From Paramacrobiotus metropolitanus (taxonomy: Eukaryota > Tardigrada > Eutardigrada > Parachela > Macrobiotidae): a stretch of DNA of 64,000 nt. The notes under the pieces are model-generated. The model saw nothing but the letters and a program-made list of their open reading frames with translations, was not told where the DNA came from and searched no databases. Below, piece after piece: positions 599-64,000 of the stretch. Each line of letters begins with the position of its first letter. Positions within the stretch are counted from its first letter, which is position 1. Position numbers and translations under genes: made by a program. The stretch covers positions 806,001 to 870,000 of the forward strand of contig NW_026570260.1 of assembly GCF_019649055.1 (NCBI RefSeq), given 5' to 3'.

Positions 599-1496
599 TT
601 TAATTACTCCCAACAATTCGCCTCAGACTCCTTCTACCGGGAACCGGGGTGATGCTACCATAGCTCAAAAGAAACAAAATGAGTCAAAGCTCGTTCAACC
701 CAAGTTAACCAACCCAAGTTCAGTGGTGCAATTGACTGCAAAGCTTGATCATGTAATACTGATCTAGCCGATAATGATGTCTGCATTCGAGTTTCTGAGG
801 GGAATATTTGATTTTAAAGGAGAGATACAATTATCTACGAGTGCATGGTACGCGTACTATTCTTGTACTAGTACTCAGTACTTGTTTTTTTTACTTGACG
901 ATACATCCACCTGAACACATTTCCGCTTGATATTGTTGACTAATCCATTGGTGGAAGCATTTTCAGTTGCGAAGCCTTTCCTGATTAACCCTAAGGGATA
1001 CATTATGTTTTTTTTGCCCTTGGAGTTCCCAAATGTAAAGAACAGTTGGAATACTTAGAATAAAACGTTTTGGATGAAGCTAACCAAAAGAAACGTTTAA
1101 TATCCAAGTTTGTGATTACTGTACTGAGTACTGTAATAGTTTCATATTGATAATTAGACATATACCGGTACGAGCGATGGTCGATAAGGTCACCGCATTA
1201 CATACTATGCCCGCACGTGTTAATGTTTTGCAGTGTTACTATAATACACGGTGCCACCGAAAAAATTAGTTGTAATAAGTACATACGTTTTTCGGTAAAT
1301 TTGGCAAAGGTCATGGGGAAAACCGTTTTCTGGTTGCTTGGATATGACTGCAACCCTTTTCTTATTGTTTCGCAACCGGTGCATCGTGCAGCTGAATCAG
1401 TCTCGATGGGATGGTTTAGAGTTCAGTTGTAATTTTGTCCACGTACTCCCAACACAGAATCTGCGCTACATTAACCTCGACACTGTTTCCCTGCTC
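599..1496. other. Intergenic; no gene seen
   Basis: About 900 bp of AT-rich sequence between the palmitoyltransferase and the protamine-like gene. A possible polyadenylation signal AATAAA lies at 1059-1064 for the upstream gene. Open frames here are short and lack splice partners. The promoter and any 5' untranslated exon of the next gene must lie here. Confidence 0.5.
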
Positions 1497-2121
1497 ATGA
1501 CTTTGACCAAACAACTGCGCAGCGGCAAAAAACTCGTCTTCTTCCGCACTTGCAAGGGTGAAATGGTCTCGTTCGCGGCACGAAGTGGCAGTTGCGGCAA
1601 GAAAAAGGTATGACTACATAAATGTCGTAACGCCATTACCAAATGAACAACAATTAAATTAACTGAATACATAATACTGAATAATGTAATGCTTCTAATC
1701 AACAAAAATATCTCATACCATTCAAAAGAGAGCAGCATAACCTTCGGCTGTGATTTTAACAGCCAAGCTGCGGCAAATCCAAGTCGAAGTCGAAATGCGG
1801 CAGCAAGAAGCGCAGCCGATCGAAGTCCCGCGGTTGCTCGCGTAAGGCTAAAAAGTCCTCCTGCAAGCCGAAGAAGTCCTCCTGCAAATCCAAAAAGGTC
1901 AAGAAGTCCTGCAAACCCAAAAAGCGCTCCGGCTGCAAATCCAAATCCAAGAAGCGCTCGTGTGGTGCGCGTCGCAAGTCACGCTCTCGCTCTCGCTCTC
2001 GCTGCGGCGGCATGAAGAAGTCCAAGGTCAGTTACTGAGCAACCCAGCGTTCATGATGTGTAATGAAGGCCTTTAATTGCAGAAATCATCCTGCCCTAGT
2101 GCCTGTGGAGCCGGAATGTAA
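1497..2121 (+). CDS. Protamine-like, Cys/Lys/Ser/Arg-rich sperm nuclear basic protein (candidate)
   Basis: Three exons join in phase 0: 1497-1607, 1763-2026 and 2083-2121 (introns 155 and 56 bp, GT-AG), giving about 137 residues. From residue 38 the protein is almost entirely K, S, R, C, G and P, built from short units such as SSCKPKK and SGCKSKSKK, with an RS run (RRKSRSRSRSR) near the end. I count 13 cysteines spaced through the basic region. This composition is typical of protamines and protamine-like proteins that pack sperm DNA and are cross-linked through disulfides. An SR-type RNA-binding tail is the main alternative, but there is no RRM and the regular cysteines argue against it. The first exon (37 residues) is not low complexity; its start ATG is chosen because the frame joins cleanly, and an earlier start in the same open frame is possible. 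AATAAA follows at 2238-2243. Confidence 0.6.
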
Positions 2122-2492
2122 GCCGGAAAGTGATGCCATTCTTGACTGGATGTTGTTATCCTTAGCGTTTGGTTGGAGGAGTGACTGTTAATTACTGCTG
2201 CTGGTTGTGAGGTTAAGTCGCAAAGAATTTAGTTTGTAATAAATCGACACGGTATTGGTTGCTCGCGATTCTCTAAAATGTAATGCTTATCCAGATCCGA
2301 GTATTTCAGTATTTCACATCCCGTGACTTTTCGCGCGAACAGTAAGCCACATAATTTACATATTCTTTCGGTTGATTATGACATTTACTCCAAGTAGTTC
2401 TAGTTTTTCCGTGCACAACCACCAAAACATTGTCACACAACAATAATATAGTTCTTTTATTATTACGTATTATTATTATATAAACCTTATTG
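2122..2492. terminator. Convergent 3' ends
   Basis: Short spacer between two convergent genes. AATAAA at 2238-2243 serves the plus-strand protamine-like gene. TTTATT at 2456-2461 reads AATAAA on the minus strand, 32 bp past the stop of the synaptotagmin-like gene. No other gene is seen. Confidence 0.5.
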
Positions 2493-4592
2493 TCATCGCG
2501 CGGCGGCCACGCTTCGAACACTGATATCCGGCTCGAAGAGCGGCGCATCGCCCTCCGCTCGGAACGTCCTCACAACAACCCTCAACGACACCACTGACAG
2601 TGTGACAAATCCATCATTGACTTCAAAACTCGTCGACACAGTCAACCCCTTTGATTTTAACACACTCGCCAATCTTACAAAACCCTGCCCCAAGCGGACG
2701 TCCTTGACCCCGTCCACGACTTCCACTTGAATCTCATCGTGCAGCAGGTCATAGATAGGAAATGCTAGGACCTCCTTCCACGCCGGTACCTTGGCGTAAT
2801 CATGCCGGTTGGAGGTTCGCTGCTGGTCACCCAGCCGTGCGGTGACCTTGACCGGGAAACTCCTGGGTAGGTGGAAAGGATCTAGATGAGCTTTGGACGC
2901 CGCCACCACGTAGCACAGCGCCACCGGTAGGATGCAGTTGGTCTTCTCCCGAATACGCTGGCAGATCAGCATCTGCATGGTGAAGTCGTCGAAACGATCG
3001 GATAAGCTCCGCCATTCATAACGTAAATGTAGAATCCCACTGCCGACGTTCTCCAAAGCGTAAAACTCCTCAATGACTCCGTTGATTTGCACCCGTAATA
3101 GGTCCAACCGCCCTTCACCCAGCGGCAAGCGGGTAATCGGGTCCTGGTCGAACACCGTAAAGGTCAAGGGGATACGCTCGCTGCGCCGGTGAAAGACAAT
3201 CTGGTAGAAATGGTTCCAGGTGGGACTTAGGCTGTCTTCCACCACCGGCGACACGAATACCTCGTTGCCGTAAGTGAACTCTACATAGGGGTTTGAGACG
3301 CCGTGAAGATCGGCAGCCTCCAGTTGAAAAGCATCGATGAGGTGAATGCGGACGATGCCCAGAGGCAGGTCAATCTCCAGATCGTGGCTGGCATAGTTCT
3401 GGGCGATGTAAATCTGAAGAGCATGCGGGGTCACCATAGTGTGGCGCAGAATACCGTGGATGGTCTTGTCCAGAACGCCGGCCACCGCCTCAAAGTTCAG
3501 AAAGTTTAGGAAGTTGGTAAATTCATAGTGTAATTGTGGTGGTTCCAAGAAATACAGCTGGGTTCCTCCTGAAATAAGCGAACAAATAGGGAATAAACTA
3601 TTTTCAGTCACCAAAAGAAAATGAAAGCAGAAATGAGTACAAACGTCAAAGGTGCAACTATAAAAAAAATAGAATCTAACGTGAGTATACTGATACAGTA
3701 ATACTAAGTTTGGCTGATATTAACGTTTAAATTACATGCGTTGTAAACTATTATTATGCTTATTTTTGTTACAAACAAGGTAACCGTCAAAAAACACTTA
3801 AAATAATTCAACATATAAAAATGGTTTTAGATAACCTTCGTAAGAGGTTTTCTTTAAAGAATATACATTCTTTAAAGATACACATTTTTTTAAAGAAAGG
3901 AGAACTTTTTGTTCAGAAACCACGAAACGAAAAGAACCGGAGACGTCGAATACGGGCATCCATTACCGATAACTGGTAATTCTGGCAGCAGTGGCTTTAA
4001 AATCAACCGCAGCGTTCCGCGTAATTGGATGTTTTTGATGCCTGTAAAGCCAGCAACCTTACCACTACAACGGTCATTGCAATGGACTCACTCCTTACCA
4101 GCCCCACCTGCCTGCTTGCACATATCCCACCCGGACCACAAATTCCGCATTGCCGCGGTACAGGACATCTAAATCCACGCATACCTCCTCTGTCGGGTCC
4201 TCCGGATAGCTGCGAACCCCTTCCACTTGAAACGGCATTGTCCCCAGATCCAGCTTGACAAAAGCAAACGACACTTTAATTGCCCGCTGCAGTTCCTCAT
4301 TGAGAAGCGCCGTGATTTCTACGCGAAAAATATGCTGGAGGTAGCGATTGATGGGCGTCCACAACCGGCGAATGACCTCGTTCAGCCACTCGACCGATTC
4401 CATGTCGTGCTCGTGGGGGTGGAGAGGCCGCAGGGGACCGGTGTTTAGCGTGGGGCGCAAGGCAGTGATGACCTTTAGGAGGCAGTAAATGAACTCTGAA
4501 ATGACGTACCACGGGACGCTGACGTCAGTGCGGAAAAGGTAAAAAAAGGTCAGATGGATGGAAAAGTCCAGGAACTGGAATAGAACACCCAT
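2493..4592 (-). CDS. Extended synaptotagmin-like lipid-transfer protein (SMP plus C2 domains)
   Basis: Exons 4592-4112, 4041-3967 and 3568-2493 give about 543 residues in matching phase. Order: a hydrophobic hairpin-like N terminus (about residues 5-45), an SMP lipid-transfer domain starting at ESVEWLNEVIRRLW and running through GIKNIQLRGTLRLILKPLL, then a C2 domain (about 255-365, IVRIHLIDA) and a second, degenerate C2-like region. E-Syts tether the ER to the plasma membrane and move lipids between them. It is short: animal E-Syts usually have three or more C2 domains and over 800 residues. In the first C2 the usual SDPY loop is SNPY, so one calcium ligand is lost while FDQD is kept. The first intron (4111-4042) appears to use a GC donor (gcaggt); the only in-phase alternative I see breaks the SMP sequence. 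Confidence 0.82.
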
Positions 4593-5481
4593 TTCACGGG
4601 TCGCTGGAGGATAGTGCGGTCATTGACTACAACGCTCATTAAGCCACACAGTCGTTAATAACGAACTGACGTCCATTATTCGCCGGATTTAATAAATTGA
4701 CATTAAGGTGAGCATGGTGAAGGTAAGTAATTTTGGCTCATGTTTAGTGTGCACCAAAGACTGCTGCTGTCGTTGTCAGATTTATTTTAACCATAAATGT
4801 GGGCTGATATAAACGTTTCAGGCGAACACATTATTGGCTGAGGCAATATCTATGTACTTAATTAACCAACAGCAGAGACGGATGTACTGGTACGCGTCAC
4901 ATCACCAAAATAAAACAATCCTGCACTCATCCGTCTTATGCGAGCACGTCACGCAAATCAAAACCATTAACGGCCATCCTTGGTTGCTAGGGCTTCGGCG
5001 CTTCTAAGCATGTCCGATGGTGCCGGCCGTTTTCTCAGACTAACGGTTGTACTTACAGTACATACCGTGAAAGATCGTGCGGCACACTTCCTAGCTAGTC
5101 GATTCGAGATGAAGTAACTGCGGAACTGCTGGTAATATAACAGGCGTCAGAGTTCAAAACGAAACATGTACTGTACTGTACTATTCTATACTAGTACTGT
5201 AGAATCTAGCGAACGCTTTTGCCGGTGCCGTGTGCAATCTGGAATGATACTGCATTGACTGAAGATTGTACTGCTTTGGATTCGGCACTTAGTACTGACA
5301 ACTTCGTGGCAATACCTGTATAAAATTCTGAAACTTTCTAACGACGACACTTGCCTTGTGTAAAGAGAAAGCTTTTAGTGCGTTTACAACCGTAACACTT
5401 TACGACGTAATAGTGGGTTGACATAGTTCTCTCTGTCTAGGTTGTTTTGGCATTGCCGCTCATAGCCAAACTACAGCAGAA
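4593..5481. promoter_or_regulatory. Divergent intergenic region
   Basis: An 889-bp spacer between divergently transcribed synaptotagmin-like and DCST1-like genes; both promoters should lie here. I see simple GTACT-rich stretches around 5165-5205 but no recognisable element or open frame. Confidence 0.35.
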
Positions 5482-21890: not shown

Positions 21891-22151
21891 TTTTGCTCAC
21901 AGCACCAGCGCTTCGAAATTTAGGAGGCAAAAATTGAACGGTAACAATATGTTGAAAATGGTTACACTGAAATCGTGAAATGACTCAAAAGTAAGCAGCA
22001 CGAAGCGATACATGTACACTGTAAGTTGCTATGAGCCGTAACGGAACATAGCGGTGCTGTTGACGGGACCACGTCAGATCGCTAGCCTAGTTCTCAATTC
22101 TCGCGAATAAATTAGCAAAAGTATCAGCAGAGATTAAGCAAAAATCGATGA
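21891..22151. promoter_or_regulatory. Divergent promoter, AK7 and SLC17-like genes
   Basis: Only 261 bp separate the two divergent start codons, so the promoters and 5' leaders share this interval. I see no clear TATA box. Confidence 0.45.
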
Positions 22152-25100
22152 ATGATATTGAAGCGGAAAGCCTTTCGCCTGGGCTATCGGCATTCCATCG
22201 TGGCCCTGGGGTTCTGTGGGAATTTCGTCTCCTACACCATGCGCTTAACGCTGAACATGGCCATCGTTCAGATGACCGCCCCAAAGAGCGACAGTTCTGC
22301 CGACAATTCCACGAATACCACCGTCGCCGAAGAATGTCCGCGACGGGATGCCAACTTAACTGTTGCCGATGGCCACAACGTATGTACGTACACCAACCAA
22401 ATCACGATTTCATTAAATCAACCTTCTTGAAGAAGCAGACGCGAAGTTGGAAATAACTGTTGCTCTAGAAATATGGATGGCATTTGTAGGACGAAATATT
22501 TGACTGGACGAGCGAGCAAAAAGGCCGGCTCCTGGGTTCTTTTTACTATGGCTATGTCGTGACGCAGATTCCTTCGGGCTACATGTCCGGATATTACGGA
22601 GCCAAACTTCCGTACCTCGTCGGTATCTTCTTGACATCTGTCTTCACTTTGTGTGCACCAGCAGCTGCGCGCTACAACATTAATGCACTGATGGCCATTC
22701 GCATCTTGATGGGATTATCGCAGGTACCATGCTTCGAATATTAGACAATTGTTACCTTACGCGGGAGGCCGGGAGTTACGCCGTTACAACCAGACTGGTG
22801 TTCACACGGGATGCAACAGCTACTCTGTATCTGCCACCCTATAAGCGCCAGTCTGTTCGTTATTCATGAACATTTTCACATTCGACATACTAAATATAGA
22901 AGTATTAATGTTAATCTTCCTAACTGCACGCAACGAGGTCCGGAAGTGTGTGGGCTATCTGAGCGGAGGCTGAAGGGGCACCCGGCAGGTGTCGTGCTCG
23001 GCCTGCACGTGCGTGCGCAGCGATCGACCCGTCCTGCCTGCGCCCTTCTACACCTTGGCCCTTTATTTCGAGATACAATCGAGAACAGCAAGAAAACAGA
23101 GGTGTGGCGGGCGGGGAAAACATCGAAATGCCGGTAAAATGCAAAACTGAAAATGAACAGATCGGTGCTGCTGAAAACGCCTTATATAGGGAGACATGCA
23201 CAGCCGGACAGTGGGCGTAACTGAGAAGACGCAACAGGGACGTTAGTCCAATGAACATTAATAGAATTTAACATGTTAAATAATCATTAATGTTAATCTT
23301 CCTAACTGCACGCAACGAGGTCCGGAAGTGTGTGGGCTATCTGAGCGGAGGCTGAAGGGGCACCCGGCAGGTGTCGTGCTCGGCCTGCACGTGCGTGCGC
23401 AGCGATCGACCCGTCCTGCCTGCGCCCTTCTACACCTTGGCCCAAACACCCAAATCAAAGAGGGTAGGCCTGGATGCCGCGGATGGGTACCGTGTTTCGT
23501 ACGTAACGGGTGTAGCAGTTACTTCGCCATCGCCCCGCTTCCTGTAAACGCTGATGGGAAGTGCCATTTGCCGCTGCGGCGCTTGAGCCGCCGATGCGGA
23601 AGCTGTGGGTGCCGTATCTGTCGATGTCGGGAACTCCCGCTAGACCGGTCTTCATGGCTCTTTCGAAGGAGTGTCGGGTGACGTAACTGCCGCTCGGTAG
23701 AATGTAGAACGGGTCATTTTTGCCGGTGGTAATTCGGACGTCCATGTAGGCTTTTGTGGAGCGCACTGGGCAAACTGAGCGGCCGGTGGCGGACAGGGTG
23801 ATGCGGTAGCCATGGTGGAATTGGTCCGTTTTTGAGCTGCGAATGGTGATGATTAGAGCATTTTCGTGAAGGATAACGTCGTTGAAGCGGAGAGTGGAGG
23901 CTGGGCAACACTTCCCGGTCTCGTTCGCTACCAGCTCGCTGACGCGGAAAAGGCCAAAGAAGGCAACGCAGAATGCACTCCAGTAGAGGAGCTGTTCCTG
24001 TTGCGGAAGATGCGAGTTGTGTAGTTTGTCTTTCATGGAGCGCATCAGATCCAGCGTTATTGGCAACCGCCGATCTGTACCTGGCATGTTGAGCCGCTTC
24101 AAGCCATTGACCGCCCGCGTGATGGCTGCGGTTGCTGAAGGGCGACTGATGCCCACCTCGGAGTGCGCATTGTCGATTCCGGCAAGGTAGACGATGGTGG
24201 TGGATGTTCCCAGGCCGTCGAGGTGGAGTTGCGCAATAAAGCGGAGAATAGTCTGCTCTGTCGCTGGTATAGGAGGCTCGCCGATGGTTTTGCAAAATTG
24301 CGCAAAGCGGCTCCATCCGGTTTGGTAGGTCTTCCTGGTAGAGGCAGCGATGTGGTGAAACTGGACTGATGCGATGGTAGCGTCCAGGGCTGCCGTTAGC
24401 TGTAGCTTAGTCGCAGGCTTTCCCACATGTCCGGTAAGGGATCCGGTAATGTTGCGGCGCCCGGTGCAAGGCGGCGGAACCGGCTGACCTGAAAGCGTGA
24501 TAGTGCGTCAGCGATTGCGTTGTCTGTCCCATTGATGTGCTTAATGGTTAACGCAAAGTTATTCTGAGCAGCAATCAAGCTTAAACGCCGCATAAGGTCG
24601 ACCACGCCTGGATTGCGTGAGCCTAGCTTTTCCCACGCTTGGGAAGCCCCTAGATTGTCGCAGTGAAAAACAACGCGCCTGAGTACGAGTTGATCTGCCC
24701 ACAGCGCGACTGCGAAAAGGATGGCACACATTTCGAGATACTCTATGCATGGTGAGCAGCCCAGTATCCAATCTGGCCAGCGTGACTGAAACCAGCGGCC
24801 TCGGAAGTAGCCGCCTATACCGAGCGTTGCGGATGCGTCGGTATAGAGGTCAAGGGTGTTTGCTACTGTCCACTCCGGTTCTAAAAACTTGGTCGTGCCG
24901 TTCCAGCGCGGAAGGAATTCTAACCACCATTCGACGTCTAGGCGGAAGTTGCTGTCTAACCGGATGGTCGCATTTGAGGCTTTTTTGTGACATTCATTTT
25001 CGCTGAGGAGGAAGGTCATGCGCCTTAGATAGAGCCGACCGGCGGGGACGCATTTGGTTGCAAATGCGAGAAGACCGATTAGACTCTGCAGATCTCTGAT

Positions 25101-28100
25101 CGTACACAAGTCGCGGTGGCGCCACTGCTCCAGAGCGCTTGTTAGCTCCTGCAGTTTGCCAGCTGGTAATGACAGAGTTTTCTTTACGGAATCGAGGACG
25201 ATTCCTAAGAAAACTATTTCGGTGGATGGGCCTTCAAGCTTGTCGACTGCTAGGGGAACACCCAGCTCATCGCAAAGCTTTTGGAATGCAAGTACGAGCT
25301 CCCGACACCGCTGTATGTTCTTGCATATCAACAGGAAGTCGTCGATATAATGTAGGAGGTCAAAATGCTTAGCGATCTGACTAAACATCCAGTGTAATGC
25401 GTCGGAGAACTTACAGAATATCCCTGGTGCAGACCGGCAGCCGAATGGAAGGACTACGTCGTGGAAGTACTGTCCATCCAGTTGGAATCCAAGTAGGTGC
25501 CACTGGTCGCGTCTCACTGGGATTAGTCGGAAAGCGTTCTTGATATCCAGTTTTGCCATGACTGCGGCGCTTCCGTTGCGTAGAATCAATTTGATGGCGT
25601 CGTCGACCGAGCAGAACTTGAGTGGTGGGGAATCTTTGGTGATGTAGTCATTTATGCTGTCGCCGGTTGGTCGTGATAAGTCGGAGATGATTCGATGGCC
25701 GCCGCTTTTCTTGGGCCGCACTGACTGAGAGTTTGTTGTGAACGGGATAAAAGGCACGGTTAAGAATGGCCCGCGCGTGTGACCTGCTGCCACCTCTTTG
25801 GCAACCGCGGCGCGTAGGATATCGGCATGAGTGGAAGCGGAAATTGCATTAGGTGTGAATCGCGACTTGTCTGGACCACGATACCCGATGTCCGCACCGT
25901 TAGTGAGGATGTCCAGAATAAGGTTAGCAATATTAGGGAATGGATAGTTAGTAAGGTGCCGCCGCCACGCTGAGAAGTTAAGCGGAGTGATCCGGCTTGC
26001 CGCGAATGGCGCCCCCGGATATGTCTGCTCCACCATGGCTGTGATGGTTGTGGTAGCCGTGGCCATTTGAGCCGCAGATGGAGCAGGAGTGCTGCCGACC
26101 GGATGGGCATGGATTGCGGCAGCGTCCGTAGTTGAAATTACGGCAGATTTCCCCGTCTGCGGCGGTGCCGGCTCGAAAAAGCGGCTTAGGCGACGGACAG
26201 TCTCTGGCTAGGTGACCCGTGGCAGAACAGTTCCTGCATTGTGCGCGCTGATGTTTTGGGTTGCCGGTAAAGGTCACGCCTGTGGATGTGGAGGGGGTCC
26301 TGGGATTTGCTATGCATTCCTGGAAGGATTCTTCGTGTCGTCGCGTCCACACCTCAGTGTCCTCCGGGTTGTTGGCAGCATTGTTGCGAAACTGAATGTC
26401 GTATTCCAGCACGTGCTCCAGTTTGTAGCCCCGTAGTGGATCCATAAGCAGCGCAATGTGGTCCAAATATCGTAAGAGTGGCTGGGTGAGTTCCGGGTGG
26501 TCGATTATGCGATAACCCATGAAGACGGAGAACGCCCTCGTCCAGCTGGAGACCGACGTTATCTGCTCTTTCTTCGGGCCTGATACGAACGCAATCTCGC
26601 CGGTTTCGTCCTGGATCATGCGGGTGCCGGTATTTGACCTTTTTGCAGGTGCGCGATTATGTGGCAGAAGGTCGACAAAGTCCACAAACTGCGTGTGGTC
26701 AAGGAGTTGCTCCCGCACCTTCGGACTCACTGCCGGCAGTCCGTGGGACTGCGCGGTGCAGCTGTTCGGTGGAGCTCCCAGTCGTTTAAACACGGATACT
26801 TTTGGCGGTATAACAGATTCGGTGATCACACTTTCAGCTCGCTTACCGGTATCGGTTGTGATGTGGTTGGACGCCGGGGAAAGTGAGCGTTTGGAGGAAG
26901 AGCTGTCGACCTGCAGCGCCGGCTGGCGGGAGCCATGCTGCCCAGTGGATTTCAGCTCGGTAACTTCGCGTTTCAGGTCCGCAATTTGTGCCATTAGCTG
27001 TTCCATGACGCTGGTTGTCTGGATGGAGGATTCCGGTGGCACGACAACTCGGGAATTCACTCGTTTGCTGGGTCGCGGAGGCGAAATATCCCGAGTTCTT
27101 TTACCGGTATTTCCCGCTGTCCGGGTTCGACGGCGCGCAGCCGGACCTGATGGCTGGCCTGCATTGTTGTTTGACCTCTTTGGAGGCATGATATAATGCG
27201 GATCCGTGTTAGTGGGTTGCGTAATTGTTTAGCAGACAATGTGGATGGCAGGTCACGCTGTCTCTGACTCGATCACACTTGATCGATTTGAGTGTTATCT
27301 CTGACTCGATATCAGACTATCGCTGAGAGAAAAACATCGAAATGCCGGTAAAATGCAAAACTGAAAATGAACAGATCGGTGCTGCTGAAAACGCCTTATA
27401 TAGGGAGACATGCACAGCCGGACAGTGGGCGTAACTGAGAAGACGCAACAGGGACGTTAGTCCAATGAACATTAATAGAATTTAACATGTTAAATAATCA
27501 TTATTATACGAGTATCGTGAATGGGACTCGCAAGCTCATAACTTCCCCACCTATTGCGCGCTGCTTTATTTATTGACGAATTTATCGAATACGACCTTTG
27601 GTTTGCATGTGTATCTAGAAAATCATGTATGCATATGTATCTAGAATGTGAATATCGCTTCGTGCTGCTTACTTTTGAGTCATATGTATGTTTGCATATG
27701 TATATAGAAAATCTCTTCTCCCTACTTGGGCTGTGGTCTGGTTTGATAAGTTAACGGTTTCGTCATGCTGATAACAATTCATCCGAAATATAAATTACTG
27801 CAACGTAGTAATAAATACAAATACCCGCTGGTATGCATGAAACTGGCAAACTTCTATAGGGTGTCAGCTTCCCATTGATGAGCACGATATTTGGCCGCTG
27901 GGCGCCGCCAGCGGAGCGCACAAAGCTGTTAGCTATCACTTCCGCCGGTGTACAGCTGGGTACCGTCATTGCCTTTCCGCTCTGCGGCGCCTTGGGCATC
28001 GCCTTCGGCTGGGCCAGCATGTTTTATTTCTTCGGAATTTTTGGGCTGCTTTTCTGCATTCCATGGTACTTCTTCGCCTTCGATTCCCCGGAGGAACATC

Positions 28101-42134: not shown

Positions 42135-43206
42135 TTAACCTTTGTTTGGTTTGGTACTATTCGGCAACTGCAGCATCTTCCCCACCGGCAAAAACTCATA
42201 AGTAAACAACACATCATACAGATCCACCATGGTGGTGTACATTTTGGCGGCGTAGTAGGCCTCCCGATCCGGGCAATACATGTCCAGCCGGCACACCGGG
42301 CAAGAGAACTCCCGACTAATGTGGATCCAATGCAGGATGCAGTGGGTGTGGAAGACATGTCGGCATGGTGCCATGAAACATCGGTCGCACCGCTCGAAAA
42401 ACTCCAAACACACACTACAGATCTCCCTCTCTAGCGGCTTACCGTTGCAAATGGCAGAAAGGGTAAGGGAGTCGATGCTAGTCTCTTCCGGTGGGTAATC
42501 GGAGTGGGCTGGGGCGGTTGCGCGGTAGCGGAAGATGGGCGCGGACGAGAACGACGTGGAGGTAGTGATAACCTGCTGCTCGATAGTGCCCAGGGCGCGG
42601 TAGCCTAACAGCTTGCAAGCCTGTGCCAATGTTTTCCTACAAACATGTGTCCAAAAAGATTGTGGGGAGAAGTAAAACAAATAGGTTTGTCGTTTTATTC
42701 GAGATATATTCAATGTAGGACGACTCGTCCTACATTGAATATATCTCGAATAAAACGACAAACGAATATATCTCGAATAAAACGACAAACGATTTTTAAT
42801 ATGCGCTCGTCCTGGACGAGCGTAAATTAAAAATCATAAGACTTCAATAATTGCAATAAAATTGCAATAAAAATTGCAAAACGATAATATAATAAAAACA
42901 AAATGGAATTTCGAAAATAAACAAGGCAAGCGCGATGACTACAGTATCTGTATTTAATGTTAATGACCAAATCGAAAACAGTGACACTTCTGATTTATTA
43001 ATATATACTGCACAGTAACAAACGTCACCACTCACATACCCAACAGCAGCGGATAGTGACCTTATATTTAGGAGCACAAATGAACGCAACAGTAATCCCG
43101 AGTGTAGGAGATGATCCACGACGACGATACCCGTGTGAATGCTGATTTGCAGCACGCTGTTGCTGACGTGGTTGACAGTATCAGGGATCGACAGAACGAT
43201 CGCCAT
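42135..43206 (-). CDS. Membrane-associated RING-H2 E3 ubiquitin ligase (candidate)
   Basis: Exons 43206-43040 and 42636-42135 join in phase to 222 residues. The N-terminal half has weakly hydrophobic helices (IHTGIVVVDHLLHSGLLL), and the C-terminal half has a RING-H2 finger: CSVCLEFFERC, then CRHVFHTHC and CPVCRLD, with the eight Cys/His metal ligands in C3H2C3 order. After the finger comes a conserved-looking helix (YYAAKMYTTMVDLYDVLF). RING-H2 proteins of this kind recruit ubiquitin-conjugating enzymes, and those with membrane spans usually act in the ER or endosomes; substrate is unknown. The 403-bp intron contains a long palindrome (42685-42835). The first exon is supported by ATG, donor gtatgt and phase, but not by homology. 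Confidence 0.7.
42685..42835. repeat. Nested palindromes with tandem 27-bp repeat, intronic
   Basis: Arms 42685-42723 and 42725-42763 are perfect reverse complements (39 bp each) around a single central C. The right arm runs into a second copy of its last part: direct repeats with period 27 starting at 42737 and 42764. A second, imperfect palindrome follows (42791-42812 with 42814-42835, centre 42813); its inner CGCTCGTCC/GGACGAGCG echoes the ACGACTCGTCC core of the first. It could fold into a strong hairpin in the RING gene transcript. Confidence 0.9.
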
Positions 43207-43483: not shown

Positions 43484-44155
43484 CTACGTTCTCGTTGTAA
43501 CGAACGTAGCCGCCAATATTAAAATGAAGATAAATCTTAAAACAACCAAATCAATGGCACCATTGCCACTGCTGCTAACTCGTGACTCCGGTTCTATTTC
43601 CGTCCCATTCAGTGCACCACCTGGGCGAAAGTAGCCCGCACACGCTGGTCCTGGTATACGCACCGTTGGATTAGCCAAGAACACCGGCTGGGTTAGTATT
43701 GCGAAATCCCGCAGCACCCAACTGTTGCAACACTCCCCGCTGCAGCGACACAGCATGCTTTTTTTCTGTGGCTGCAAAGTCTTATTGGTATCTTTAATCT
43801 GAGTCAACATTTCCGATGTGAGGGGCTGATCATCTACGAAGGTCACACAGTTCGCGGTTCCAAAGTCGGCCGTGCTGGTGAGACAGCCGCGTTTGAGAGC
43901 AAATGCAGGAGCGCTTTGGTTCGCCGGGGCAGTGCGGTTGTCGCTGGATGGCAAAGGAGGGTTGATGAATGCTGTAGCCTCAGCGAAACAATACGGTACG
44001 GTATCGTAGCAGGCCATTATGCGGTCGTCGGGCAGGCGGTTACAGGGAATCCCGTCGGCGTCTAGATAATTGGGTCCGCGGCAGTCGTAGCAGTGCAGCC
44101 GCGCGTCTACCGCGCTGACAGCGGTGAGAAGCAAAAAGTTCACGTTTATGGCCAT
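43484..44155 (-). CDS. Ly6/uPAR-like GPI-anchored cell-surface protein
   Basis: Frame of 223 residues starting MAINVNFLLLTAVSAVDA (signal peptide), followed by LHCYDCRGPNY, several spaced cysteines, and the closing CRCSGECCNSW box, then a C-terminal hydrophobic segment (LRFIFILILAATFV) fitting a GPI-anchor signal. N-glycosylation sites are present (NRT, NQS, NKT, NGT). The cysteine pattern ending CCN is the three-finger Ly6/uPAR signature. An in-frame upstream ATG at 44197 exists, but the start at 44155 gives a proper signal peptide. It is a paralogue of the gene at 48541-49128: both share LHCYDC/LQCFHC, PCN, KRGC/TRGC, CVTxxDD and CRC-CCN in the same order. Ligand and role unknown. Confidence 0.75.
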   Translation of the reverse strand: MAINVNFLLLTAVSAVDARLHCYDCRGPNYLDADGIPCNRLPDDRIMACYDTVPYCFAEATAFINPPLPSSDNRTAPANQSAPAFALKRGCLTSTADFGTANCVTFVDDQPLTSEMLTQIKDTNKTLQPQKKSMLCRCSGECCNSWVLRDFAILTQPVFLANPTVRIPGPACAGYFRPGGALNGTEIEPESRVSSSGNGAIDLVVLRFIFILILAATFVTTRT

Positions 44156-44612
44156 CTTTGCTTTGCGTGTGCTCGTAGTGACCTTGCATAATTTCACGTT
44201 AACTCGGGTTTGCCATCAAGCAAACATCTTTAATTAATTAATTTGAGCACGTATGACCTTTATGTTGTACCACGCTGCTTGGGCTTTCCCACGTTAGAAA
44301 GAAGGACGTTTATGCAAAATAACCAGCCAGCTGGAATTGCTAACGCATGCTTCGGAAAGTTTCCTTGCGTAAATGCTTGGGTTACTCGGGCTTCTAGATA
44401 ATTTACGTTCTTTGTTGTTAAATGCATGGTATGTTGCTACGTAGGGCGCACTAAGAAACTTCGTAGGTGACTGTTACAACAGAAAACGTCATCACTGATC
44501 ATCACAAACCACAAACTGGCTGTAGATATAACAGCAACTAATTAACCATTAATTAGACCAGAATCAATCAGGTACAAAGTACTGTAGGCATCCCAACCGC
44601 CCTATCATTTTT
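44156..44612. other. Intergenic
   Basis: About 457 bp between the Ly6-like start and the beta-tubulin end, both on the minus strand. No open frame or repeat of note. Confidence 0.35.
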
Positions 44613-48540: not shown

Positions 48541-49128
48541 CTACGTACACGTCAATAAAAAAGTAAACAGAGTTATCAACAAAGGCAAGCATGAGCGCAT
48601 CCGTTCCGCATAATTCCCCGTGACCTCTGGAATCGCACTAGCGTTTCGGCACTCGAATGTCTGGTTATCTGGGTCCTTTACGCGCGGCTCTACCTGTAGC
48701 TCCGGCCAGCCGTCGAAATCAGCTAGCTGCGCTTTATTACAGCAGTCTGTCTTACACCGACAAATAACCGTTTGCTTGCGCATCCGGTAGCGGTCACTGC
48801 GTATATCATTCAACAGAGATGCACTCAACAGGGTCTTGTCATCGATGATCGTCACACATCCGGTCGCCGTATCCGGCCAAGATACGCTGCCGCCCTCCAC
48901 ACAACCGCGAGTCAGGGCATAGGATGACAACTGCTCGCTCTCCACCGGCGTCGTGCTCACCTGAGTGTAGCAGGAAGTGGAGCTGTTGGAACACACACGC
49001 GAAGTCTCGGGGATGACGTTGCAGGGAACCCGTTTCTCATCGAGGTTATGGAAGCCTTTGCAATGGAAACATTGGAGAGACCCAGAACTGTGTATAATAA
49101 AGAGAATGCTGGTGATACTGTAAAGCAT
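48541..49128 (-). CDS. Ly6/uPAR-like GPI-anchored protein, second copy
   Basis: Intronless frame of 195 residues: signal peptide (MLYSITSILFIIHSSGS), LQCFHCKGFHN, PCNVIPETSRVC, TRGC, CVTIIDDKTLL, the closing CRCKTDCCNKAQL box and a hydrophobic C terminus (LPLLITLFTFLLTC) for GPI addition. The order of cysteines and the flanking words match the gene at 43484-44155, so the two are paralogues lying either side of the beta-tubulin gene. Secreted to the cell surface; partner unknown. Starts only 81 bp from the divergent gene at 49210. Confidence 0.75.
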   Translation of the reverse strand: MLYSITSILFIIHSSGSLQCFHCKGFHNLDEKRVPCNVIPETSRVCSNSSTSCYTQVSTTPVESEQLSSYALTRGCVEGGSVSWPDTATGCVTIIDDKTLLSASLLNDIRSDRYRMRKQTVICRCKTDCCNKAQLADFDGWPELQVEPRVKDPDNQTFECRNASAIPEVTGNYAERMRSCLPLLITLFTFLLTCT

Positions 49129-49209
49129 TCTCAGTAACCAGGGGAACAGGCTTGTCGATTTAGGAAAGAGACAGTTTCTGTACTCGTAAAAACTCCCATA
49201 AAATTTAAT
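49129..49209. promoter_or_regulatory. Very short divergent promoter interval
   Basis: 81 bp between the start codons of the Ly6-like gene (minus) and the coiled-coil gene (plus). Any shared promoter must be here or overlap the coding sequence, unless 5' exons lie further out. Confidence 0.4.
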
Positions 49210-50061
49210 ATGACTCTATTCTTAGCCACGGCACTCCCGATCGGGACGCTGATCTTGCTGATCTGTTTTTATATCCACGCAAAGTATAGCCGCAACCAAA
49301 AAGCCGCCACCACCAGTAGCGTCGTTGACTTTTCCGCCAATCTCGCCCAGCTCGCTGGTGAGAATGGGGCTACCACGGTACAACAGCCGGATTTCCAGGC
49401 CATGCACCTGGAGGTCCAGAAACTCTTAGCCGAGGCACTAGAGAACCGCCGCTCTGCTCACCACCTCGAGGTCGACCTGGCCACCAAGAACGACCTCCAC
49501 GACCAACTAGAGGTTCATTTGAAGCGCATCCAGTCGGACATCCAGACGGAGCGGGCCTTCGTTCGGGCTGCCGGGAAGCGCCTGACGGCACTGCTCGAGT
49601 TAGACAAGAAACTAGAGGATGAAGAGGAGGAACAACCTACAATACAAGAGGGCCCCGACATGGGCGAACTGGGGATGGAGCTGCTGCTTAAAGTCGCCGA
49701 AGAGACCAGCGTAAATCTGGCCAAGGTGCTGCGTAACATCGACAAGATTAACGCCAGTATGATGAAATTGAACAGTAAGCAGTCGGAATATCTGGAGCAT
49801 GTGGCGGCACTGCAAAAACTGAAGGACCAACGTCACCGTTTGACCATGGAAATGGCACTGCTGGAGCGCATCGCCATCATGCACCAGTCTGGGGTCAATA
49901 TGGCAAGTAGACCCAGCGAGTCAGCTTTTAAGCGCGTGGGAAAATTCTTTGCCCGCCCAAGTGGGCAGTTCTCGGAAACGAGACTGTCCGATGAAACCAG
50001 AAGGGTGCTAAAGAGCATCACTGCGCCGGTGCCTGGAGTCAGTTTAACCGCTCACAGTTAA
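49210..50061 (+). CDS. Membrane-anchored coiled-coil protein, unrecognised
   Basis: Intronless frame of 283 residues. Residues 2-24 form one N-terminal membrane span (LFLATALPIGTLILLICFYI), followed by a short basic stretch and a long region of heptad-like Leu/Ile spacing (about 60-235) with an acidic break (EDEEEEQPTIQEGP), typical of coiled coil. The C terminus is Ser/Arg-rich. The topology (short lumenal N terminus, large cytosolic coiled coil) resembles organelle tethers, but no family is recognised. Confidence 0.65.
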   Translation: MTLFLATALPIGTLILLICFYIHAKYSRNQKAATTSSVVDFSANLAQLAGENGATTVQQPDFQAMHLEVQKLLAEALENRRSAHHLEVDLATKNDLHDQLEVHLKRIQSDIQTERAFVRAAGKRLTALLELDKKLEDEEEEQPTIQEGPDMGELGMELLLKVAEETSVNLAKVLRNIDKINASMMKLNSKQSEYLEHVAALQKLKDQRHRLTMEMALLERIAIMHQSGVNMASRPSESAFKRVGKFFARPSGQFSETRLSDETRRVLKSITAPVPGVSLTAHS

Positions 50062-63131: not shown

Positions 63132-63312
63132 AAGCATTCTAGTACTCTTGCCGCAGTTCTTCCTTTTTATCGCCCTACGCTTACTTATGTAATCGGATCA
63201 CTCGAACTGTGGTCTGTGGTCACTGAACGTTCACCAGTATTTGATTTTTTTGCGAGATAACCATGTCACCAAATTTTTCGCCTGTCATTGGATACCTCAC
63301 AGAGGTAGACTA

Positions 63313-63739
63313 AGGGTACTCAAACATCCTTTACGAACGGCTCTATAAGTTATAGATGCGATTTCTCTTTAACTCTCACTAGCCAATCATACTTCTCTAA
63401 ATCGGTTAATGATTAGTTAGGTTTGAATGGGTGTTTACGCATCCCACTTCACAAGAGGACAGAAAGTCTAAAACCATTGGAAACAAATTTCAGTAGTCCG
63501 CAACAGATATCTGCATATTAGATGCAGGATCCGTTTCAGTTTGCACTAGCGATTTCCAACTCAGCGGGCCCTATACCGAAAAGTAACGATTTTGGTACTT
63601 TAAGTTAAAGGACTTTAAGTTAAAGAGAGGAAAATTATAGAGCCCTTCGTCCAATGGTCGTGCAGAGACGGAGCCAAAAGTTAAACGATCTGGCCCCTTT
63701 AAGTTATAGAGCCATTCGTAAAGGATGTTTGAGTACCCT
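63313..63739. mobile_element. MITE-like element, 427 bp, with long terminal inverted repeats
   Basis: The left end AGGGTACTCAAACATCCTTT at 63313 and its inverse at the right end (ending 63739) agree for over 35 bp with one difference (ACGAACGG versus ACGAATGG). TA flanks both sides (63311-63312, 63740-63741). The interior has repeated TTTAAGTTAAAG and TATAGAGCC words but no coding frame. A non-autonomous DNA transposon. Confidence 0.85.
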
Positions 63740-63741
63740 TA

Positions 63742-64000
63742 CTGTAATGGAGCTCACTCGGTGCAAGTGATGTGGTTAACGCCCAATTCTAACTGTGTCC
63801 AACGCGTGAGGGATGCTTCTTTTGGCAGAACATGAAACATGAATTTTCAGCAAGAACTGCTTTTCCTTAGCCACTTAACCATAGCCGTGCCTTTAATGTG
63901 TCATTGATCTGCATATCCGTTGAAGAAACCATGAATAAGTTATGAATGGGAATTATTATTATTATGTTAATAATGAATAATTATATATACTATTACCATT
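63742..64000. other. Right edge, no feature seen
   Basis: About 260 bp, ending in an AT-rich run of ATTATTATTATG-type repeats; the window stops here. Confidence 0.35.

Follow-up and report, generated by a model that had tools for sequence, protein, structure and literature searches.

The 64-kb window analysed here (the whole stretch of DNA, positions 806,001 to 870,000 of contig NW_026570260.1, whose own numbering is used throughout) carries at 22904-27503, on the minus strand, a complete-looking tyrosine-recombinase (YR) retrotransposon of 4600 bp. This is confirmed, and its bounds, which agree with those given in an earlier note on this DNA, are exact: the outer 158-bp repeat supplies the first base and the outer 173-bp repeat the last. 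We think it likely that this is a structurally complete, recently inserted element of the Ngaro type, that is, a methyltransferase-less YR retrotransposon with split direct repeats. It is a well-preserved specimen of a known, little-studied class and no new kind of system, and "intact" is used of it in the narrow, predictive sense that its three frames are open and the expected catalytic residues are present. The parts of the element and the intron that holds it are as follows (ORF, open reading frame; RT, reverse transcriptase; RH, RNase H; L003 is the closest relative, described below):

22904..27503, minus (sense strand): whole YR retrotransposon, 4600 bp, from repeat ends and ORFs
27331..27503, minus: A1 repeat, 173 bp, element 5' end; 0/173 differences to A2
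27396..27402, minus: TATATAA in A1, putative promoter box; the only other sense-strand copy is in A2, 23182-23188
25978..27189, minus: gag-like ORF1, 403 aa from its ATG; CCHC knuckle; related cluster in L003
24396..26207, minus: ORF2, RT and RH, 603 aa stop to stop; RVT_1 match and identity to L003
23455..24507, minus: ORF3, tyrosine recombinase, 350 aa stop to stop; matches to Cre and L003
23286..23443, minus: B1 repeat, 158 bp; 0/158 differences to B2
23286..23289, no strand assigned: 4-bp core ATTA (TAAT on the sense strand), putative crossover site read from the sequence
23117..23289, minus: A2 repeat, 173 bp, identical to A1; 4 bp in common with B1
23062..23116, minus: unique gap between A2 and B2, 55 nt; its last bases are the only AATAAA of the sense strand (23062-23067)
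22904..23061, minus: B2 repeat, 158 bp, element 3' end, identical to B1
22725..27859, plus: host intron of an MFS transporter gene, GT...AG, phase 0; 5135 nt, 539 without the element

Along its sense strand, 5' to 3', the element runs A1-gag-RT/RH-YR-B1-A2-gap-B2, with A1 at element positions 1-173, the gag ORF at 276-1526 (ATG at 315), RT/RH at 1297-3108, YR at 2997-4049, B1 at 4061-4218, A2 at 4215-4387, the gap at 4388-4442 and B2 at 4443-4600. This is the split direct-repeat arrangement A1-[ORFs]-B1A2B2 that Ngaro and PAT-like elements have in common. The earlier note had described the two repeat pairs as apparently identical, and the divergence check bears this out; over both pairs together 331/331 sites agree, which places the divergence at 0.9% or less (95% confidence). 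Because both pairs are identical, either the element is recent or its repeats were recently converted. The core ATTA stands at all three joints, namely the B1/A2 joint and the outer edges 22904-22907 and 27500-27503, and since TAAT thus lies at the B1/A2 overlap and at both outer edges, the flanks would be consistent with an unoccupied site that had a single core, and with insertion free of target-site duplication. Around the B/A joint, a stretch of 101 nt holds three copies of the heptamer TTAACAT or its complement, which are possible recombinase half-sites. DIRS1-type inverted termini with an internal complementary region were not found in the element, where the only inverted matches from the repeat typing were imperfect ones of 21-22 nt close to the ends; the same typing gave DIRS1-type inverted ends for a comparator element (L002, below), which served as the positive control. 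The element has a GC content of 54% vs 47% for the window, in which blastn at E<=0.01 detected no second copy of any element part and the best tblastn match outside the element had an E of 0.11.

The three frames that the earlier note had read as zinc-knuckle gag, RT-RNase H and tyrosine recombinase are indeed open over 416, 603 and 350 aa from stop to stop (25978-27228 for ORF1), and they lie in the Ngaro order on one strand. In 300 dinucleotide shuffles the longest stop-to-stop ORF averaged 184 aa and was 357 aa at most, which puts the 416- and 603-aa frames above chance; ORF3 by its length alone does not, and it is supported by homology. ORF1 has a Pfam zf-CCHC match (E 1.1e-6) with a CCHC knuckle from residue 318, followed in residues 349-382 by a CCCH-like cluster (CRNFNYGRC...C...H) and then by a CCHH-like, knuckle-like cluster; the counterpart in the L003 Gag reads ICRDFNRRACRRPNCHFKHIC...CGGNH. 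ORF2 matches RVT_1 (E 2.8e-16) and, among solved chains, six at E<=0.01, from the 'Enzymatic polyprotein' 8r0s (E 2.6e-8) down to Ty3 (E 0.0025). The best solved-structure matches of ORF3 are Cre recombinases (E 2e-5), and its sole Pfam match is Phage_int_SAM_4 at E 0.0046, which is under that family's curated cut-off. The catalytic residues that the earlier note had reported can all be located: Y287-x-D289-D290 for RT, D457, E492, D517 and D567 for RNase H (both in ORF2), and R188, K226, H301, R304, W327 and Y335 for the recombinase, their catalytic roles being those usual in such enzymes. All three sets are conserved in L003, R188 and K226 of the recombinase included, and H301, R304, W327 and Y335 align with the C-terminal catalytic block of Cre, a block that taken alone scores a weak 7.4 bits. 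Stop to stop, gag overlaps ORF2 by 230 nt and ORF2 overlaps ORF3 by 112 nt; ORF2 lies in the +1 frame relative to gag, and its first ATG, at 26066, falls within the gag overlap.

Relatives were sought with a degenerate RT pattern in genome contigs, which led to four contigs (L001-L004). All four genomes behind these first loci were matched again, and one of them, G001, yielded an additional element, L016. L001-L004 and L016 are contigs of bacterial metagenome-assembled genomes (MAGs) that carry eukaryotic-type YR retrotransposons; hosts or algae probably contributed this DNA to the bins. The closest relative among the scans, L003 (contig JAAXHI010000064.1, from a Poribacteria MAG and probably sponge-host DNA), matches all three proteins, at 39-40% identity over 593 positions for RT/RH, 36% over 303-315 positions for YR (E 4e-56; 1.6e-51 in the first search) and 27% over 203 positions for Gag; its gag region is broken across frames, and repeats were not found on its 4.36-kb contig. 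The other three first loci, L001, L002 and L004, match the RT/RH at 25-29%. In wider samples, each of which includes the starting genome, matches were obtained in 1 of 84, at least 2 of 392, at least 1 of 395 and at least 2 of 396 genomes (at most three candidates per genome being scored in the last three samples), of which 0, 1, 0 and 1 were new beyond the starting genome. The loci of the two new genomes are L019, a Gypsy element that we used as the tree outgroup, and L015, in which the RT lies in a much longer frame. Among viral contigs no relative was found with protein P0002, two RT patterns or two alignments (183 and 64 pattern matches, 0 confirmed), and L021 and L022, drawn from viral contigs by a YR pattern, were rejected as relatives since neither matches the three proteins at E<=0.01.

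Does the element encode a methyltransferase or a hydrolase? The earlier note had seen neither, and this holds: neither the three ORFs nor 19 of the 20 further frames of at least 80 aa that overlap the element gave a Dam or other methyltransferase match at E<=1 (Pfam) or a hydrolase domain, the single frame left out overlapping the element by 14 nt. Weak Pfam matches in 5 of those 19 frames (E 0.057-0.16; one is named for a sulfatase C-terminus and none for a methyltransferase) were taken as chance and set aside. Only 32 aa of ORF2 remain after the ADALSR motif of its RNase H, and a methyltransferase after RNase H, as expected of PAT, was not found there. The same library gave a Dam match in all four comparators (L001, E 2.2e-3; L002, 1.1e-5; L004, 4.1e-6; L016, 2.5e-4), and as these scores are all just or well under Pfam's curated cut-off, the comparator domain is supported by its position and repetition and by no single score; L003 has no Dam match at E<=0.1. 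The RT/RH tree agrees with this division. It was built from seven rows (the element, L003, L001, L002, L004, L016 and the outgroup L019) and 456 of 585 columns, and is to be read with the reservations that the Gypsy row is long and that no row carries a published label. The element and L003 are joined at 100/100, separate from the four Dam-bearing rows, which come together at 88/95 with a fork that the program left open (93/97 with a simpler model); moving either the element or L003 into the Dam-bearing group changed the likelihood by -16.0 (approximately unbiased test, p 0.0055 and 0.0058). Kept off the tree were L009, L011-L014, L017 and L018 (fragments, degraded pieces from L003's genome), L015 and L020, and, as the same DNA as other loci, L005-L008 (L003, L004, L001 and L002, respectively) and L010 (L016).

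The earlier note had taken the lack of both domains as closest to the PAT-like plan, and this is the claim that we would replace. In the literature passages compared, DIRS and PAT elements are credited with a methyltransferase that Ngaro and VIPER lack (PMC4157794, PMC3266345); split direct repeats are attributed to PAT, Ngaro and VIPER (PMC4157794, and PMC8547959 for Ngaro), and absence of the methyltransferase together with split direct repeats is the mark of Ngaro (PMC4157794, PMC3266345). By these criteria the element is of the Ngaro type, which it resembles in its A1-[ORFs]-B1A2B2 layout, its gag, RT-RH, YR order and its lack of a methyltransferase, and its RT/RH groups with that of the methyltransferase-less L003. 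A hydrolase is described in amphibian Ngaro (PMC9210276), and the SGNH hydrolase of those members was not found in the element; it is not a defining Ngaro feature. Ngaro elements, among them those of amphibians, fungi and fish, are thus the closest known systems; the four Ngaro types of Cafeteria burkhardae differ in size, being 6-7 kb vs 4.6 kb here (PMC8547959). L003 is like the element in its RT/RH, YR and Gag similarity, its zinc clusters and its lack of a Dam match, but differs in that the element has both repeat pairs and an open gag. DIRS1-like elements share gag, RT-RH, YR and a short core at the ends, and in them integration at a 3-bp junction without duplication is described, with ATT the commonest end (PMC3266345); the inverted termini and methyltransferase of DIRS1, however, are both missing here. 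VIPER also lacks a methyltransferase and is restricted to kinetoplastids; the spliced intron of the host gene and its animal-like neighbours would suggest a non-kinetoplastid host. Ngaro elements have already been recorded in ecdysozoans, tardigrades included (PMC4157794, PMC11071193), so that one in a compact animal genome would be unsurprising.

Several observations weigh against the Ngaro reading or weaken its footing. Zinc fingers in Gag are a listed mark of Pat1 (PMC4157794) and are present in the element, and they go unmentioned in the excerpted Ngaro descriptions with which it was compared. Overlapping ORFs are said to be unusual for Ngaro (PMC3266345), and the frames here overlap, as do those of Xenopus Ngaro (PMC9210276). 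The name itself rests on anatomy plus exclusion, the comparators carrying no PAT or Ngaro label, and feature homoplasy is stressed in PMC4157794. A further point concerns ORF3: it lies in the -1 frame relative to ORF2 and offers no ATG ahead of residue 141, which means that a frameshift, splicing or a non-AUG start would be needed to make the recombinase's N-terminal part, and neither ORF overlap has an in-phase -1 slippery heptamer (each has one GGGAAA-type heptamer, out of phase). AlphaFold predictions of YR (alignment A3, two rows; mean pLDDT 38.4) and Gag (single sequence; 38.2) were too poor and were left unused. The first of these points would suit a PAT-like element of the Pat1 or echinoderm form that has secondarily lost its methyltransferase and uses the same repeat mechanics. 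The Pat1 key fits it in split direct repeats and zinc-finger Gag, both also found here, and a methyltransferase-less Pat1 derivative has been proposed in C. briggsae (PMC4157794). PAT itself, however, is described with the methyltransferase domain that the element lacks, L003 lacks Dam as well, and both fall outside the four Dam-bearing elements; the recombinase, too, is only weakly similar to those of L004, L001 and L002 (E 0.02, 0.27 and 3.0) vs L003, although none of the Dam-bearing four is a proven PAT. We therefore consider such a loss unlikely.

The missing early ATG of the YR frame would also suit a dead or domesticated copy with frames kept open by chance or by host use, but with every repeat site identical, three frames open and an antisense intron position that gives no sign of host use, this is very improbable. 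As for recency alone, the earlier note's claim of a recent copy stands as far as it follows from the identical repeats, which gene conversion could also keep alike. That the identity comes from conversion or from assembly and not from a young insertion might be entertained because one copy alone is visible in the window; converting the repeats alone would not, however, explain the identity of both pairs together with undamaged frames, and we give this explanation little credence. A Ngaro-type element that is probably young remains our preferred reading.

How might such an element replicate? On its sense strand TATATAA is restricted to A1 and A2 (shuffles expect 0.075 per element), and the sole AATAAA, at element positions 4437-4442, lies directly before B2 (shuffles expect 0.69 per element); AATAAA falls in the gap in 7 of 1000 shuffles and there alone in 4 of 1000. 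These numbers are descriptive only, because the motif places were chosen after the sequence had been seen. A limited literature search found no published account of TATA or polyadenylation placement in Ngaro. For DIRS1-like elements a model is described in which internal repeats give a cDNA circle that is inserted by recombination (PMC3266345). The parts, their order, the repeat identity, the residues, the motif positions and the shared core all being observed, we infer from them a cycle of this kind. A circular-cDNA model is also applied to split-repeat elements. RNA would start near the end of A1, at about position 135, from the putative A1 promoter, could read through B1 since no AATAAA precedes it, and would end just inside B2, at about 4460, after the AATAAA of the gap. 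It would thus be without the first (most) part of A1 and the last (most) part of B2; Gag would package it and RT-RNase H would copy it. Because B1-A2 holds the missing A1 and B2 parts already joined, this RNA could serve as the template of a closed circle about 4,596 bp long. The recombinase would then recombine the circle's B/A joint, at ATT or ATTA, with a short core of like sequence in the chromosome, an integration that would make no target-site duplication. From this we put forward, tentatively and as somewhat less than an even bet, that the split repeats share the labour: A would supply the promoter, the A2-B2 gap the only poly(A) signal, and every transcript would be forced through B1-A2, so that it holds within itself, as a single unbroken template, both outer pieces that its own ends lack.

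The earlier note had placed the element antisense in a transporter intron, and rightly so: the gene is on the plus strand and the element on the minus, the exon frames ...RILMGLSQ and GVSFPLMSTIFG... join in phase 0 (...GLSQ|GT...AG|GVSFP...), and the downstream exon matches MFS_1 (E 1.9e-32). A perfect 31-nt inverted repeat (21980-22010 / 27653-27683; blastn E 2.5e-8) flanks the insertion, with one arm upstream of the transporter start and the other in the intron 150 nt past the element; since both arms are outside the element, it was rejected as a part of it. Elsewhere in the window, 63306-63746 has inverted arms of 50 nt that are 90% complementary and 341 nt apart, resembling a small non-autonomous DNA transposon, and 42685-42763 is a perfect inverted repeat of 39 nt whose arms are separated by a single nucleotide and which overlaps a 27-nt tandem repeat (42737-42792). 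Two ORFs of the cysteine-rich, secreted type, at 43484-44215 and 48541-49215, resemble each other in layout and have no Pfam match at E<=0.001, and we presume that they may be tandem Ly6-like paralogues. Rfam and tRNA scans of the window gave 0 and 0 matches.

YR retrotransposons are rare, and the way they replicate has had little testing. Its open frames and identical repeats make this copy a good place to look for an active Ngaro in the host, and its compact 4.6-kb layout, with a single well-placed set of putative promoter and poly(A) motifs, would make the circular-cDNA model directly testable. An element that lacks methyltransferase and hydrolase alike should not be classed as PAT-like on that ground. 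If the division of labour between the repeats is general, it would explain why Ngaro and PAT keep the A1-B1A2B2 layout.

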